A stretch of DNA of 38,578 nt from Chitinophagaceae bacterium (GTDB lineage: Bacteria; Bacteroidota; Bacteroidia; Chitinophagales; Chitinophagaceae): contig CANCPA010000016.1 in assembly GCA_947379895.1 (NCBI GenBank), positions 1 through 38,578 of the forward strand, in the 5' to 3' direction. Under the pieces are notes generated by a model. That model made no database searches and had not been told where the DNA came from. It worked only from the letters and a program-made list of their open reading frames with translations. Positions 12,370-16,991 of this stretch are shown here, one piece after another. The translations under genes were made by a program, and so were the position numbers. The stretch's first letter is position 1. Every line of letters starts with the position of its first letter.

Positions 12370-12620
12370 GAACTATCAAACATGACATGAGAAATATTAA
12401 ACTATAAAAGTATACATGTAATCACAAGATGGAAAATATCAAATATGAGATGGAAAATATGAAATATGAGATGAAAAATATCAAATAAGAGAAGCACAAT
12501 ATAAATCACTAGATCACAAATATCAAACATGATTTGGTCAATATCGAACATAATTTGAAAAATATTTAACTACAGAAGCAAAATATTAATCACGAAATAG
12601 AAAATATTAATTGTATTAAC
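12370..12620. repeat. Degenerate 21-bp tandem array, about 12 units
   Basis: Twelve units of mostly exactly 21 bases can be laid end to end (starts at 12370, 12391, 12412, 12432, 12453, 12474, 12495, 12516, 12537, 12558, 12579, 12601). The best-conserved units, at 12432-12473, each read as three heptamers: GAAAATA, TCAAATA or TGAAATA, TGAGATG. An AATAT core recurs near the start of nearly every unit. Twenty-one bases are two turns of B-DNA and three heptamers. The array contains only short open stretches, such as a heptad-like MENIKYEMENMKYEMKNIK ending in TAA. Confidence 0.7.
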
Positions 12621-13109: not shown

Positions 13110-13117
13110 TACATTTG
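13110..13117 (+). promoter_or_regulatory. -7 element directly before the Cys-rich protein gene
   Basis: TACATTTG matches TAnnTTTG and ends four bases before the ATG at 13122, the same geometry as at the BioF-like gene. Use of this element would give a leaderless or nearly leaderless transcript. Confidence 0.4.
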
Positions 13118-13121
13118 CGGC

Positions 13122-13508
13122 ATGTTTAAACAATCAATAGCAATACTCTTTTTATTTGCGTTCCTGACGCAAATGTTTAGTAAGGCTATTATTGTATGTA
13201 GTTTCTACGCTAATCAAAGCTATATTGCTAAAAACCTTTGCGAAAACAGAAAGAAACCTAAAAGTTGTTGCGAAGGAAAGTGTCAGCTTACAAAGAAACT
13301 AAATAAAGAAACGAACGAGGACAAGCAAAGCAACGAACGTAAATCAAGTAAAGAATCGGAGGTTCTTTCATCTATTTCCTTTTTCACTCATCAATTGATT
13401 CCAAATAGTATAGATATTTCAAAATTTTACTCTGAACATAAGCTAATTAAACCAATAGATAAATCATACGCAATTTTCCATCCCCCCGGAATAAAGTTCA
13501 CAATATAA
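13122..13508 (+). CDS. Small Cys-rich exported protein, putative metal (copper) related
   Basis: This 128-residue protein has an N-terminal hydrophobic segment (about 4-24) acting as a signal or anchor. A conserved-looking cluster follows, YIAKNLCENRKKPKSCCEG, then KC, placing cysteines at 40, 49, 50 and 54. A Lys/Glu/Ser-rich charged linker and a 45-residue C-terminal part come after. I recognise the CENRxKPxxxCxGKC pattern from small unnamed Bacteroidota proteins that are often near copper or TonB genes, but no function has been established for them to my knowledge. The clustered cysteines and the MbnP-like and di-heme genes downstream suggest periplasmic copper handling. That role is inference from context. 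Confidence 0.65.
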   Translation: MFKQSIAILFLFAFLTQMFSKAIIVCSFYANQSYIAKNLCENRKKPKSCCEGKCQLTKKLNKETNEDKQSNERKSSKESEVLSSISFFTHQLIPNSIDISKFYSEHKLIKPIDKSYAIFHPPGIKFTI

Positions 13509-13527
13509 GTAAGTTGCTAAAGTTGAA

Positions 13528-13590
13528 GGTATTAAGTACTAAGTATTAAGTAATAGGTATTAAGTTGTACGTTATACTTATAAGGTTGTA
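13528..13590. repeat. Nine-unit heptamer array
   Basis: Nine contiguous 7-bp units: GGTATTA, AGTACTA, AGTATTA, AGTAATA, GGTATTA, AGTTGTA, CGTTATA, CTTATAA, GGTTGTA. It starts 19 bases after the Cys-rich gene. The rest of the 449-base spacer 13509-13957 shows no ORF, hairpin or promoter that I can support. Confidence 0.7.
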
Positions 13591-13957
13591 CTCATTGCAG
13601 TTTTGTTGATATGAAAGTCTGCAAAAGTGTACAATTTAGATACTCTTATAGCCTCTACTCAATCTGAATAGCAAACTTATATTCAATTAAATTTCACCAT
13701 ATAGGTACTTTAGAGAAATGATATTAATTCAGATTTGTAGTATCGAATAAAACATCGAAGGTTTCATTTTTTCATTCGAGACATTGCTACATTAATGTGG
13801 AGCGCTACTTATCTTAATTAAAATTTACAAGGTTTCTACTGTGACTATATGGAACTACACTTTCGCGATTTTGTTTACTCTAAGTGGTATAGCCATCTGA
13901 GTTGAACAATCACTCATCATTTTCTCAATTAATTTAAATTAAACAACTAAAAAAATT

Positions 13958-14764
13958 ATGCAACGTATTTTCATATCATTTATAGCAGCTTCATTGCTTT
14001 TTGTTTCTTGTAAAAAAGATAGCGTATCAAGTTATAATAGTAACGTAAAAGCCGACTTATCAGTTGAGTTTGATAACATAGCAGGGTCTCAGGATTTACA
14101 ATTGAATACAGGTAAATATAAAACGACAAATGGTGACTCAATCACAAGTATTACAAAGCTTAAATACTTTGTTAGTAACTTTTCATTCACTAAAGTGGAC
14201 GGAACAGTGTATACAATTCCTCAAGATAGCAGCTATTTTTTAATTGTCGAGGGCGATTCAAGTACTTATGAGCCTAGCTTTAAGGTTCCTGAAGGCGAAT
14301 ATAAATCAGTGAGTTTTGTATTAGGCGTTGATAGTGTTCGTAACACACTCGATGCAAGTAAACGCACAGGCGCACTTGATGTTACAGGAGAAGCATCTGA
14401 TATGTATTGGACTTGGAATAGCGGCTACATATTCTATAAATTAGAGGGCAATTCACCTCAAGTTCCTTCGATGGGCGGCATGGGAAATTCGTTTATGTAT
14501 CATATCGGTTTATTTGGTGGTAAAACAACCCCTACAATCAACAATATTAAAACCATTTCACTCGATCTTACGGCAAGAGGTACACCTAAAGTTAAATCGG
14601 GCAAGGACACAAACATACACTTAATGGTAGATGTATTAAAAATGTTTTCAGGAACAAATACAGTTAGTATTGCAGCACATTCAATGGTTATGACGGATGC
14701 TTATAGTGCTTCGATTGCTGCAAATTTCAGTGGAATGTTCCGTCACGAACATACCGAAAATTAA
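13958..14764 (+). CDS. MbnP-like copper-binding lipoprotein
   Basis: This 268-residue lipoprotein has a signal peptide with lipobox LFVSC (C18). Its body resembles the MbnP-like family: LKYFVSNFSF near 68-77, the FKVPEGEYKSVSFVLGVDS region at 108-126, and a tryptophan motif YWTWNSGYIFYKLEG at 150-164. W151 and W153 are the only tryptophans in the protein. In characterised MbnP proteins, a partner di-heme enzyme (MbnH) oxidises a tryptophan to kynurenine, which creates a high-affinity copper site. Here a di-heme protein gene follows directly. Possible metal ligands include H182, H241 and the C-terminal FRHEH. It should sit in the outer or inner membrane facing the periplasm. Copper binding and modification are inferred from the family, not seen. 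Confidence 0.78.
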   Translation: MQRIFISFIAASLLFVSCKKDSVSSYNSNVKADLSVEFDNIAGSQDLQLNTGKYKTTNGDSITSITKLKYFVSNFSFTKVDGTVYTIPQDSSYFLIVEGDSSTYEPSFKVPEGEYKSVSFVLGVDSVRNTLDASKRTGALDVTGEASDMYWTWNSGYIFYKLEGNSPQVPSMGGMGNSFMYHIGLFGGKTTPTINNIKTISLDLTARGTPKVKSGKDTNIHLMVDVLKMFSGTNTVSIAAHSMVMTDAYSASIAANFSGMFRHEHTEN

Positions 14765-14782
14765 GCAAGCAAATCGTATAAT

Positions 14783-14817
14783 GTATTAAGTAATAGGTTG
14801 TAAGTTTTACGTTAAAA
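14783..14817. repeat. Five-unit heptamer array
   Basis: GTATTAA, GTAATAG, GTTGTAA, GTTTTAC and GTTAAAA run contiguously, 18 bases after the MbnP-like gene. This interrupts an otherwise probable operon with the di-heme gene. Confidence 0.6.
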
Positions 14818-14926
14818 CAAATAATTCAACAATAAAACATTGGATTTCATACAAAGTTTAAATCATTTAATTAAACTAGATTAACGTAGAATTTACTACC
14901 TATTCTTAAACCAATTCAGGTTAAAA

Positions 14927-15961
14927 ATGAAATTTACTCGAAATATCGCTTTAATAGTTTTACTCTTTGGCATTAGTATTTATGCCTGCAAAAAGGAACT
15001 CTCAGAGCCCTTTTTGGGATTTCAGCAACCCTCAAACTTTCCTCAGCCGACTTATCATTTTGAGTCAAATACAGTAACAAAAGCAGGTTTTGAATTGGGA
15101 AGAAAACTTTTTTACGACCCTCTTCTTTCGCATAACAATACAATTAGCTGTGGAAACTGTCATATTCAAACTTCGGCCTTTGTTCATCCGGGACATAGTG
15201 TGAGTCATGGCATATATGATAGACTTGGCAAACGAAATAGCCCTCCTATCATGAACCTTGCATGGAGTACAACATTCATGTGGGATGGAGGAATTTTTGA
15301 CCTTGACTTACAACCACTTGCACCGATTGCAAATCATGTAGAAATGGATGATACAATCACCAATGTTTTAGCAAAACTCCGACATACAACTACTTATCCT
15401 ACCTTATTCCAAAAAGCTTTTGGCTCGACAGAGATCACCGGAACAAAATTCTTAAAAGCACTTGCACAATTTATGGTCATGTGTGTAAGCAGCCATTCAA
15501 AATATGATAGTGTAATGCGAAATGAAGGTGCGCACTTTTCAGAGAGTGAACAAATTGGATATAGCCTATTTCAACAAAAATGCAATAGTTGCCATAAAGA
15601 GCCCTTATTTACAGATTTATCATTCAGAAACAATGGTTTACCGGTAAGTGGATTGAATGATGAAGGTCGATTTTCAGTCACACTAGATAGTTCTGATAGA
15701 TATAAATTTAAGGTTCCTAGTCTTCGAAATATATTATTTACTGCACCCTATATGCACGACGGTAGATACTACGACTTAGATGGTGTGCTAGATTATTATA
15801 GTAACAATGTGCAAAACACATTAAATCTTGATCCCTTATTAAAAGAAAATGGGAAATTGGGAATTTCCTTAACATCTGCTGATAAACTAAACCTATTAGC
15901 TTTTTTGAAAACATTGAGTGATAGAAGCTTTTTATTAGATAAAAAGTTCTCGGAACAATAA
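14927..15961 (+). CDS. Di-heme cytochrome c peroxidase / MauG-MbnH family lipoprotein
   Basis: This 344-residue protein has a lipoprotein signal (IYAC, C21) and two heme c sites, CGNCH at 75-79 and CNSCH at 219-223, as in bacterial cytochrome c peroxidases, MauG and MbnH. W113 (NLAWSTTFMWDGG) could bridge the hemes, as the equivalent tryptophan does in MauG and CCP. The distal-ligand region is APYMHDGRYYD at 273-283. Paired with the upstream MbnP-like gene, it most likely oxidises a protein tryptophan instead of only removing hydrogen peroxide. A plain peroxidase is the alternative. The leader carries AATTCAGGTTAA at 14913-14924, also found before the next gene. It should act in the periplasm, anchored by lipid. 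Confidence 0.85.
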   Translation: MKFTRNIALIVLLFGISIYACKKELSEPFLGFQQPSNFPQPTYHFESNTVTKAGFELGRKLFYDPLLSHNNTISCGNCHIQTSAFVHPGHSVSHGIYDRLGKRNSPPIMNLAWSTTFMWDGGIFDLDLQPLAPIANHVEMDDTITNVLAKLRHTTTYPTLFQKAFGSTEITGTKFLKALAQFMVMCVSSHSKYDSVMRNEGAHFSESEQIGYSLFQQKCNSCHKEPLFTDLSFRNNGLPVSGLNDEGRFSVTLDSSDRYKFKVPSLRNILFTAPYMHDGRYYDLDGVLDYYSNNVQNTLNLDPLLKENGKLGISLTSADKLNLLAFLKTLSDRSFLLDKKFSEQ

Positions 15962-15966
15962 AATAA

Positions 15967-16015
15967 GTTGTAAGCTATAATTTGAACGTTACAAGTGTTA
16001 GGTATAAAGTAGAAA
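15967..16015. repeat. Seven-unit heptamer array
   Basis: GTTGTAA, GCTATAA, TTTGAAC, GTTACAA, GTGTTAG, GTATAAA and GTAGAAA lie end to end in the 106-base gap after the di-heme gene. Unit divergence is higher than at 8106 or 13528. Confidence 0.5.
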
Positions 16016-16067
16016 AGTTGAGGATAAAAAATATGAAAAACAAAATAATTCAGGTTAACATTTTACC

Positions 16068-16991
16068 ATGAAAAAGATTCTTTTAATATTATTAATTACC
16101 TGCTTCTTTGGGAGTAAAATCGTTGCGTGCGATATATGTGGCTGTGGCGTGAGTAGCTATTACAATGGCATACTTCCCGATTTTAAAAAGAAAATCATCG
16201 GGTTTAGATATCGATTCAATTCACTAAAAACACATATTGGTTTAAGTGGTGTTGAAAGCTATTTAACAACTGTAGAGCGTTATCAAACAGCAGAATTTTG
16301 GGGAGGATGGAATATAGGGAATCGATTTCGGATCATGTCTTCTATTCCTTATAGCTTTAATGAAAGAAACAATCAGGGAAATAGTACGAAAAAAGAAGGA
16401 ATTGGTGATATTACTTTCACAGGATATTATCTTATATATAAACAAGAAAAAACAGTATTATCCAATTTACGGCTAGGTCAGAGTTTATGGATTGGAGGAG
16501 GGATTAAACTTCCTACAGGAGCTTACAATCCCGCAGAAAAGCAAGGTAGTACACAAAACTCAAATTTATTTCAACTAGGAACAGGCAGCCTTGATTATAT
16601 GGCAAATGCAATGTACGATTTAAGACTACAAGATGTAGGTATCAATATCAACGCTAGTTATAAAATGAATAGTAGTAACAATCACGACTATCGATATGGT
16701 AATAAATTGAGTACTGCAGCACAGTGTTATTATAAATTTCGCCCTTTACACAATTTATCAATTGCACCTAATGTTGGAGTAGTGTATGAGAAAGGGGTTA
16801 CTGATTTCAGCAACGGATTCAATGTAGATATATCGGGTGGAAATATTACTATTGGCACAATTGGTATTGAGACAGCATTTGACAAACTTAGTTTTGGTGG
16901 AAGTTGGCAAACTCCATTATCTCAAAACTTAGCAAACGGCTTTGTTAAATCTAACAACCGATTAATGGTACATGTTTCTATGTCATTTTAG
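16068..16991 (+). CDS. Outer-membrane beta-barrel protein with N-terminal CDICGCG motif
   Basis: This 307-residue protein has a signal peptide (1-20) whose cut would leave CDICGCG at the mature N-terminus (C21, C24, C26). IVAC could also be a lipobox. The rest consists of alternating beta strands with aromatic ends: FWGGWNIGNRFRIMSSIPYSF, GDITFTGYYLIY, LWIGGGIKLPTG and the terminal LMVHVSMSF. That matches an outer-membrane barrel of the transporter or MetA-pathway-of-phenol type. The three-Cys motif is a plausible metal site. I recall the CD(I/V)CGC family next to MbnP and di-heme peroxidase genes in other Bacteroidota, which supports a copper-linked role, but no function is proven. A weak hairpin with ATGTC/GACAT arms (17023-17037), followed by TTTT, may end the transcript. 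Confidence 0.72.
   Translation: MKKILLILLITCFFGSKIVACDICGCGVSSYYNGILPDFKKKIIGFRYRFNSLKTHIGLSGVESYLTTVERYQTAEFWGGWNIGNRFRIMSSIPYSFNERNNQGNSTKKEGIGDITFTGYYLIYKQEKTVLSNLRLGQSLWIGGGIKLPTGAYNPAEKQGSTQNSNLFQLGTGSLDYMANAMYDLRLQDVGININASYKMNSSNNHDYRYGNKLSTAAQCYYKFRPLHNLSIAPNVGVVYEKGVTDFSNGFNVDISGGNITIGTIGIETAFDKLSFGGSWQTPLSQNLANGFVKSNNRLMVHVSMSF

Follow-up and report, generated by a model that had tools for sequence, protein, structure and literature searches.

A probable copper-sensing arrest leader ahead of an MbnP/MbnH gene pair in a Chitinophagaceae bacterium

The window, a 38,578-nucleotide (nt) stretch of DNA from a Chitinophagaceae bacterium (GenBank assembly GCA_947379895.1, contig CANCPA010000016.1), contains four open reading frames (ORFs) that run in one direction on the plus strand and encode a small cysteine-containing protein, an MbnP lipoprotein, an MbnH-like di-heme enzyme and an outer-membrane barrel. 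The first of these is probably not a partner protein of the other three, but a leader: a copper-sensing nascent-peptide regulator that would act in cis on the four-gene copper operon. A preliminary description of the locus gave the four genes, their strand and their place as the ORF coordinates confirm them, and all residues that it named are right, although gene 1 has five cysteines (C26, C40, C49, C50 and C54) and C26 was omitted from its list.

The leader family is characterized by a cysteine motif and a Pro-Pro pair close to the C-terminus. In a first set, 48 leaders were found, two of which were set aside (L094 at a contig end, L101 with masked letters), and two more (L066 and L100) were left out of the alignment. 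The only invariant columns in the resulting 44-member alignment are C40, C50, G52, C54, P121 and P122, and the family spacing of the cysteines is C-x9-C-x3-C. Pro-Pro lies near the end of 45 of the 46 leaders of this set, compared with 24 of 774 other ORFs of at least 100 residues. A second set, the named loci, was retrieved with an N-terminal pattern and represents the best 80 of 266 in a tblastn ranking; extra leaders within a locus were labelled by a profile that includes the C-terminus. A leader ending in Pro-Pro is found at 79 of these 80 loci, and the pair falls within the last 15 residues in 87 of 88 complete leader ORFs. The single exceptional leader of each set lacks the motif in frame and carries it in another frame. 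Pro-Pro is directly preceded by H in 68, by R in 14 and by Q in 5 of the 87 leaders, and the residue before that is F in 86 of them. F[HRQ]PP does not occur in the last 15 residues of any of 1853 other ORFs. One to nine residues (median two) follow the pair, which stands six from the end in the window's leader. In a class-level set, Pro-Pro is present in 29 of 29 leaders, this set having been retrieved with the full profile, C-terminus included. Within the class to which the window belongs, 105 of 198 genomes contain the leader, as do 42 of 60 within its family, and the same search of class genomes yields one copy in the genome studied here. A weak Pfam match of the window's leader to the Ctr copper transporters (E 0.083) was taken as chance.

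The two motifs are held at a nearly fixed distance. From the cysteines to Pro-Pro, 63-70 residues are counted in 86 of 87 leaders of the named loci (129 in the remaining one), and the spacing from the last cysteine averages 66.3 residues (standard deviation, SD, 1.6; range 61-70) among 124 distinct leaders with Pro-Pro near the end. The mean pairwise identity of the linker is only 20%. Eight MbnP segments of 26-62 residues, which are 28-40% identical, have SDs of 1.8-3.8 and are thus more variable in length. It is therefore the length of the linker, and not its sequence, that is conserved.

The leader gene mostly takes the promoter-proximal position. The consensus of the Bacteroidota -7 promoter box is TAnnTTTG, and such a box stands just ahead of 87 of 127 leader genes. 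It is found ahead of 4 of 92 mbnP genes, 0 of 73 mbnH genes, 2 of 66 barrel genes, 1 of 38 genes for TonB-dependent transporters (TBDT), 1 of 14 PepSY genes and 63 of 583 other ORFs. None of the three intergenic gaps of the window's locus (449, 162 and 106 nt) holds a further TAnnTTTG box. The leader mRNA may start almost at the start codon, since in 46 of the 87 box-bearing leaders 4-8 nt lie between the end of the box and the first start codon in frame. At the named loci, the next gene lies on the leader's strand in 87 of 87 cases and encodes a barrel (30), a TonB receptor (29), MbnP (13), another leader (4), a YtkA-like protein (3) or another product (8). Neighbour labels other than leader, MbnP, MbnH and barrel rest on similarity to a few seeds, and nearly all of these were checked against Pfam. 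A Pfam scan of 20 chosen neighbours returned TonB receptor, PepSY_TM, SCO1/SenC, YHS, YtkA, P-type ATPase, Fe/Mn superoxide dismutase and DJ-1/PfpI families, with four proteins left without a match. A leader relative from the same genus, 72% identical to that of the window, is first in an operon with a TonB receptor, PepSY and SCO1; the leader is therefore exchangeable between copper operons. Two tandem leader genes precede one TonB receptor gene at L166, L167 and L168. At L073 (9833-11833) and L074, an operon protein of about 670 residues lies between the first leader and MbnP; the L073 protein (666 residues) matches no Pfam family at E 0.001 and follows a YtkA-like protein that scores just below the cut-off.

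At the RNA level, the region of the Pro-Pro codons is rich in C and poor in G, and in the window this bias is strongest at 13410-13487, over the last leader codons through Pro-Pro. Rho loads onto such C>G stretches. In 125 distinct leaders, which comprise only those with Pro-Pro near the end, C minus G in the 81 nt ahead of the Pro-Pro codons averages +9.0. The corresponding means are -1.6 for more upstream parts of these genes and -1.9 for 708 other ORF ends. The bias spans about -120 to +30 nt around Pro-Pro. At fourfold-degenerate sites near Pro-Pro, G is depleted (0.137 vs 0.257 and 0.222). A ribosome that stalled at Pro-Pro would sit directly on the C>G stretch.

The preliminary description had proposed the Cys-rich protein as an extra partner of the MbnP/MbnH pair. 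In a more explicit form of this idea, the mature protein would be exported as a copper-binding chaperone or reductant of MbnP/MbnH, and HPP would be a metal-binding or interaction motif. The hydrophobic N-terminus, the three invariant cysteines together with an H that is often present at the end, and the position mostly beside copper genes would all suit such a protein. The family, however, also heads operons without MbnP, and with barrel and TonB receptor genes following it about equally often, it has no fixed partner. In 19 of 87 leaders, R or Q takes the place of the H, the stretch between the cysteines and Pro-Pro is nearly fixed in length at low identity, the gene is mostly promoter-proximal, and the depletion of G at fourfold sites points to selection on the RNA. 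A mature partner is thus quite improbable, and the earlier proposal is probably wrong; the protein instead resembles a leader of the CruR or CutF type.

The mechanism proposed for the leader, which is modelled on that of CruR, can be outlined as follows. A single promoter directly ahead of the leader would drive the operon. The N-terminus of the leader, hydrophobic as judged by eye, would bring the nascent chain to the membrane during translation, and the ribosome would tend to stall on reaching F-H-P-P. At this point, C40, C50 and C54 would be about 66-82 residues away from the peptidyl-transferase centre, which would place them beyond the ribosome and probably on the far side of the translocon. 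A nascent chain needs about 65-70 residues to extend from the peptidyl-transferase centre out of the ribosome and past the translocon. Since the spacing of 61-70 residues matches this reach, the sensor may read periplasmic copper, which is the most daring element of the model. At low copper, the stalled ribosome would cover the C-rich, G-poor stretch, and transcription would continue into mbnP, mbnH and the barrel gene. Binding of Cu(I) by the leader cysteines would relieve the arrest, the ribosome would depart, and the downstream genes would be switched off, most likely through Rho. MbnH would then oxidize W151 of MbnP to kynurenine, creating a site for Cu(I) close to M149 and H182, and the CDxCGC barrel might pass copper through the outer membrane or hand it over there. 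Copper would act as the off signal because the cargo is of the acquisition type and because the operons of CruR and of CorA/CorB are copper-repressed, according to passages of the respective reports (PMC9426467; PMC3912023).

The direction of control could also be the reverse. In CutF-type control, copper would prolong the pause, a downstream RNA hairpin would open, and copper would switch the operon on for detoxification instead of acquisition. The leader shares its design with CutF (passages of PMC9973294), about half of the gaps after leaders are shorter than 100 nt, and the gap of the window contains a hairpin of -15.7 kcal/mol near 13583-13637. This hairpin, the best in the gap, is not followed by a T-run, and 3 of 50 shuffled gaps reach values as low. 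The best gap hairpins of close relatives (L158, -20.7 kcal/mol, 0 of 50 shuffles; L157, -17.1, 3 of 50; L159, -13.6, 16 of 50) differ from it in place and sequence. In the leader-mbnP gap of 449 nt, compared across four close relatives, no conserved RNA element or strong terminator is evident. Together with neighbours that are mostly of the acquisition type and with the copper repression of the CruR and CorA operons, this makes copper-induced control unlikely. The L158 hairpin lies at about 1793-1852, in the leader-mbnP gap of that relative, and is below all 50 shuffles.

An arrest leader might also respond to a signal other than copper, such as disulfide state, zinc or Sec export capacity. 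A sensor made of cysteines only could read redox, and a spacing of 66 residues resembles the length needed to cross the translocon, so that export itself could be sensed. Against this stands the recurrence of copper-linked genes downstream (SCO1, YtkA-like, PepSY_TM, MbnP, MbnH), and the 20 neighbours covered by the Pfam scan include no sec gene, the others not having been checked for sec genes. This is the least probable of the alternatives, and copper is retained as the likely signal of the leader.

Several points weigh against a copper-sensing arrest leader. The TAnnTTTG box is missing ahead of 40 of the 127 leaders. The gap between leader and next gene is often short (median 99 nt), which fits termination by Rho less well than the 449 nt of the window. 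C is not enriched at fourfold sites near Pro-Pro (0.270 vs 0.269 and 0.250), amino-acid use adds to the C>G bias, and the leader relatives are not independent samples, so that the p-values of the C>G comparisons are not independent either. Outside the nearest relatives, the residues ahead of Pro-Pro vary (IQPP, FVPP, SPPP, FSPP, FKPP). In CruR, passages of PMC9426467 and PMC12992588 describe RAPP, and RAPP/RGPP are the motifs with demonstrated stalling, whereas the leader usually has F[HRQ]PP; its C-x9-C-x3-C likewise differs from the CXXC of CruR. The leader was also considered as a homolog of DUF2946, the family of CruR, and this was rejected: neither the window's leader nor the 44 members gave a Pfam DUF2946 (PF11162) match, the members showing stray matches only, with one further stray match in NCBIfam, and hhalign gave a probability of 0.3% in a comparison with only five weak DUF2946-type proteins of Bacteroidota, so that a distant kinship is conceivable. 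The sign of control is guessed from what lies downstream, and CutF runs the opposite way.

The arrangement of the genes is not a matter of chance: it recurs in regions selected through the MbnP score alone, without regard to the Cys gene. MbnP has 55 places in total, and 42 of its genes in 40 regions, two of them from this genome, were examined. MbnH is the next gene in 42 of 42 cases, the leader stands directly upstream of MbnP or one barrel away in 19 (within 6 kb in 21), the barrel adjoins the MbnP/MbnH pair in 16, and the arrangement of leader, MbnH and barrel is complete in 14. All four families are present at 20 of the 80 named loci. The closest named relatives of the window are metagenome-assembled genomes of Chitinophagaceae with the same four genes (L157-L159).

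The identity of the pair is supported by Pfam, by sequence and fold matches in the PDB and by conservation of Trp, Met and His, which bears out the preliminary description. Gene 2 scores 167.8 bits against Pfam MbnP PF20243 (cut-off 27; E 3e-49) and 51 bits against TIGR04052, below the equivalog cut-off of 140. It has a single cysteine, C18 at the lipobox position, and exactly two tryptophans, W151 and W153, in the motif YWTWNSGY. The single sequence reaches the PDB entry 7l6g only at E 0.66, whereas a profile of 30 WxW MbnPs does so at E 1e-5 and aligns M149, W151, W153 and H182 to Met, Trp, Trp and His of 7l6g. The AlphaFold model (mean predicted local distance difference test score, pLDDT, 87) matches only the six 7l6g chains at E <= 0.001, with template modelling (TM) scores of 0.52-0.56. 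Gene 3 scores 169.7 bits against Pfam CCP_MauG and 198.7 bits against TIGR04039 (MbnH); the latter is below the cut-off of 362.85 and still the top NCBIfam model, ahead of MauG. The heme motifs begin at residues 75 (CGNCH) and 219 (CNSCH), and the top PDB sequence match is 6e1c ('Di-heme enzyme'), which we take to be MbnH, ahead of peroxidases and MauG. Gene 2 is thus supported as MbnP and gene 3 as its MbnH-type di-heme partner.

Across the phylum, 39 of 148 genomes carry MbnP, 38 of them with a score above the Pfam cut-off. The genome of the window (5.3 Mb in 401 contigs, 99% complete) has two further MbnP/MbnH pairs, L120 (G000:C145, 3620-5307) and L122 (G000:C78, 4097-6158), neither with a Cys leader; in L122, MbnP lacks WxW and has SWPDQM in its place. 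The preliminary description had stressed the lack of methanobactin genes in the window. This holds in so far as no gene of the MbnB type (PF05114) turns up anywhere in the genome, the short precursor MbnA not having been searched for. Such pairs were, however, already known, as passages of Kenney and Rosenzweig (PMC3621798) describe the MbnP/MbnH pair as conserved far beyond methanobactin producers.

The conversion of a tryptophan to kynurenine and the binding of copper by MbnP are expected from the family. In a structure of MbnP from 2021, the first Trp is reportedly converted to kynurenine, and copper is said to lie near a Met and a His. A chosen set of 30 WxW MbnPs shows no variation at M149, W151, W153 or H182, and across all 67 WxW sequences M149 is retained 62 times and H182 65 times. 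Among 91 distinct MbnPs, 64 combine WxW with an MbnH within 2.5 kb, six lack WxW and have MbnH nearby, two have WxW only, 17 have neither, and two have short flanks. Nineteen WxW-less MbnPs of the leader-barrel-MbnP type form one clade, in which 17 have no nearby MbnH, one has a short flank and one, at L219, lies near a second pair. All 19 members have lost W153 and 18 have lost H182, while nearly every one retains the first Trp. Because these proteins form one clade, the loss of WxW accompanies the loss of MbnH as about one event.

For this reason, the association of WxW with MbnH was dropped as proof of kynurenine. The first Trp is kept in 23 of 24 WxW-less MbnPs, 18 of them without an MbnH found nearby, so that it is no marker of the modification; conservation of Trp alone is not proof of kynurenine. 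The MbnP of the window might accordingly go unmodified and bind copper through Met and His alone, with the MbnH-like enzyme acting as an ordinary di-heme peroxidase. Both proteins fall below their NCBIfam equivalog cut-offs, and the Bacteroidota clade that is mostly without nearby MbnH retains the first Trp. The invariable presence of MbnH next to MbnP in the MbnP-chosen regions, the loss of W153 and H182 in that same clade, and the top PDB match of the enzyme to the presumed MbnH ahead of peroxidases argue for modification. An unmodified MbnP is therefore doubtful, though less so than any of the alternatives for the leader. Operons with the order leader, barrel and WxW-less MbnP, with no MbnH found nearby, were seen at L231 (6403-8798), L169, L192, L193, L210, L218 and L227. 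The barrel of L231 is rich in Met and His, and an adjoining small cytochrome-like protein has a heme-like CX4CH motif.

The barrel had been put forward as a further partner of the pair, and it is indeed supported, partly by its modelled fold, as a channel-type outer-membrane protein and conserved neighbour of MbnP/MbnH. Its cysteines are residues 12, 21, 24, 26 and 220, with CDICGCG starting at 21. C21 and C24 of the CDxC motif are invariant in 21 barrel homologs and kept in at least 90% of another 30. The AlphaFold model (pLDDT 79) finds its top fold matches in FapF and the COG4313 channel 4rl8, with E values of 1e-10 to 6e-9 for the top chains, TM scores of 0.54-0.64 and 12-17% identity. The barrel of the window has no Pfam match; among 30 relatives, three match Phenol_MetA_deg and five an autotransporter barrel. 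The gene is single-copy in the genome. That it serves as a channel or a docking port for copper is conjecture.

The features of the locus are collected in Table 1. By eye, A+T-rich near-repeats resembling AAATATGAGATG are seen upstream of the operon at about 12420-12620, and repeats resembling TTAAGT/TAGGTTGTAAG occur in all three gaps (about 13540-13590, 14785-14815 and 15965-16015).

Table 1. Coordinates of the operon and of its leader elements in the window.
Feature	Position	Strand	Basis
TACATTTG, promoter box of the Bacteroidota -7 type (TAnnTTTG), 4 nt upstream of the leader ATG	13110..13117	+	motif position; general consensus
Leader ORF, 128 residues: hydrophobic N-terminus, Cys sensor, F-H-P-P near C-terminus	13122..13508	+	ORF and family alignment
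Putative Cys sensor, codons C40 to C54	13239..13283	+	C40, C50, G52, C54 invariant in 44/44 aligned
C-rich, G-poor stretch (18 C and 5 G in 78 nt) through the Pro-Pro codons; candidate Rho-loading site	13410..13487	+	base counts; strongest in window
F119-H120-P121-P122 codons, candidate ribosome-arrest motif	13476..13487	+	family alignment
Leader-mbnP gap, 449 nt, A+T-rich, without own TAnnTTTG box	13509..13957	+	sequence scan
MbnP lipoprotein with M149, W151xW153, H182	13958..14764	+	Pfam, alignment, AlphaFold model
MbnH-like di-heme enzyme: lipobox (by eye), CGNCH, CNSCH	14927..15961	+	Pfam, NCBIfam, PDB sequence match
Outer-membrane beta-barrel, CDICGCG near N-terminus, FapF/COG4313 channel-like fold	16068..16991	+	homologs, AlphaFold model

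Compared to the MbnP/MbnH pair of Methylosinus trichosporium (7l6g and presumably 6e1c), the pair of the window shares the Pfam MbnP family, WxW, the aligned Met and His, and an adjacent MbnH-type enzyme. It differs in the lack of an MbnB-type gene in the genome, in scores below the TIGR04052 and TIGR04039 cut-offs, and in the single lipobox cysteine of MbnP, which leaves no four-Cys motif; the operon additionally contains the leader and the barrel. Comparable systems are MopE/SACCP and CorA/CorB of methanotrophs, in which a copper protein containing a kynurenine site and an adjacent di-heme enzyme are copper-repressed (passages of PMC3912023), and MopE/CorA are described as not markedly similar to MbnP in sequence (passages of PMC3621798). 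The COG4313/Phenol_MetA_deg channels and FapF (5o67, 5o65, 4rl8) are the best fold matches of the barrel at moderate scores, and the barrel of the window adds CDxCGC near its N-terminus.

Among known leaders, CruR of Bordetella pertussis (Bp2923, DUF2946) resembles the family in several traits, as described in passages of PMC9426467. Both are small ORFs with an N-terminal export-type signal that stand first in the operon, combine a Cys metal motif with a C-terminal Pro-Pro at a conserved spacing (61-70 residues in the leader, 45 in CruR), and include a C>G stretch, which in cruR holds the rut site within a C>G bubble. The operons headed by cruR homologs include genes for TBDT, PepSY_TM, Sco-type chaperones and MbnPH-like proteins, and TBDT with PepSY_TM or MbnPH-like genes also follow the leader. 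Arrest of the CruR type has been demonstrated in vitro, and RAPP/RGPP leaders before copper-factor genes are reported missing in some groups such as Bacteroidota (passages of PMC12992588). DUF2946-type proteins with RAPP or RGPP ends were found in 5 of 148 genomes, two above the Pfam cut-off. Such small proteins in a few Bacteroidota are those of L123-L127, and in L124 (1492-1824, minus strand) CSLC and RAPP are 45 residues apart, as in CruR.

CutF of Rhodobacter capsulatus has the same general design as the leader with the opposite direction of switching (passages of PMC9973294). With 128 residues, Pro-Pro six from the end (within the last 15 required) and a same-strand gene after 449 nt (within the 1000 required), the leader falls within the filters on length, Pro-Pro and downstream gene given there for CutF-like proteins. 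The catalogue draws 19% of its entries (40% when normalised) from Bacteroidota, and the leader family is probably among them; its main-text passages mention neither a cluster or motif from Bacteroidota nor a connection with MbnP. Because this catalogue already covers such Bacteroidota proteins in bulk, the leader is best seen as a variant of a known arrest-leader design. A description of the family in print was not found in a literature search, whose reach ended short of supplementary tables.

To our knowledge, copper sensing and acquisition in Bacteroidota are little described. The odds appear evenly balanced on the wider proposal that this phylum has a copper-sensing arrest-leader family of its own, not recognisably related to CruR, which would combine a three-Cys sensor, a stall at F[HRQ]PP, periplasmic sensing through the 66-residue spacing and masking of a Rho site, and which would act throughout much of the phylum as the general switch for operons of copper acquisition, including those with MbnP/MbnH. 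If true, the family would supply the Bacteroidota arrest leader with a different stall motif, and CxGxC followed by F[HRQ]PP would be a simple marker for unannotated copper operons. Set beside CruR with its shorter spacing, it would also offer a test of whether the distance from the cysteines to the arrest site sets cytoplasmic or periplasmic reading of the metal.

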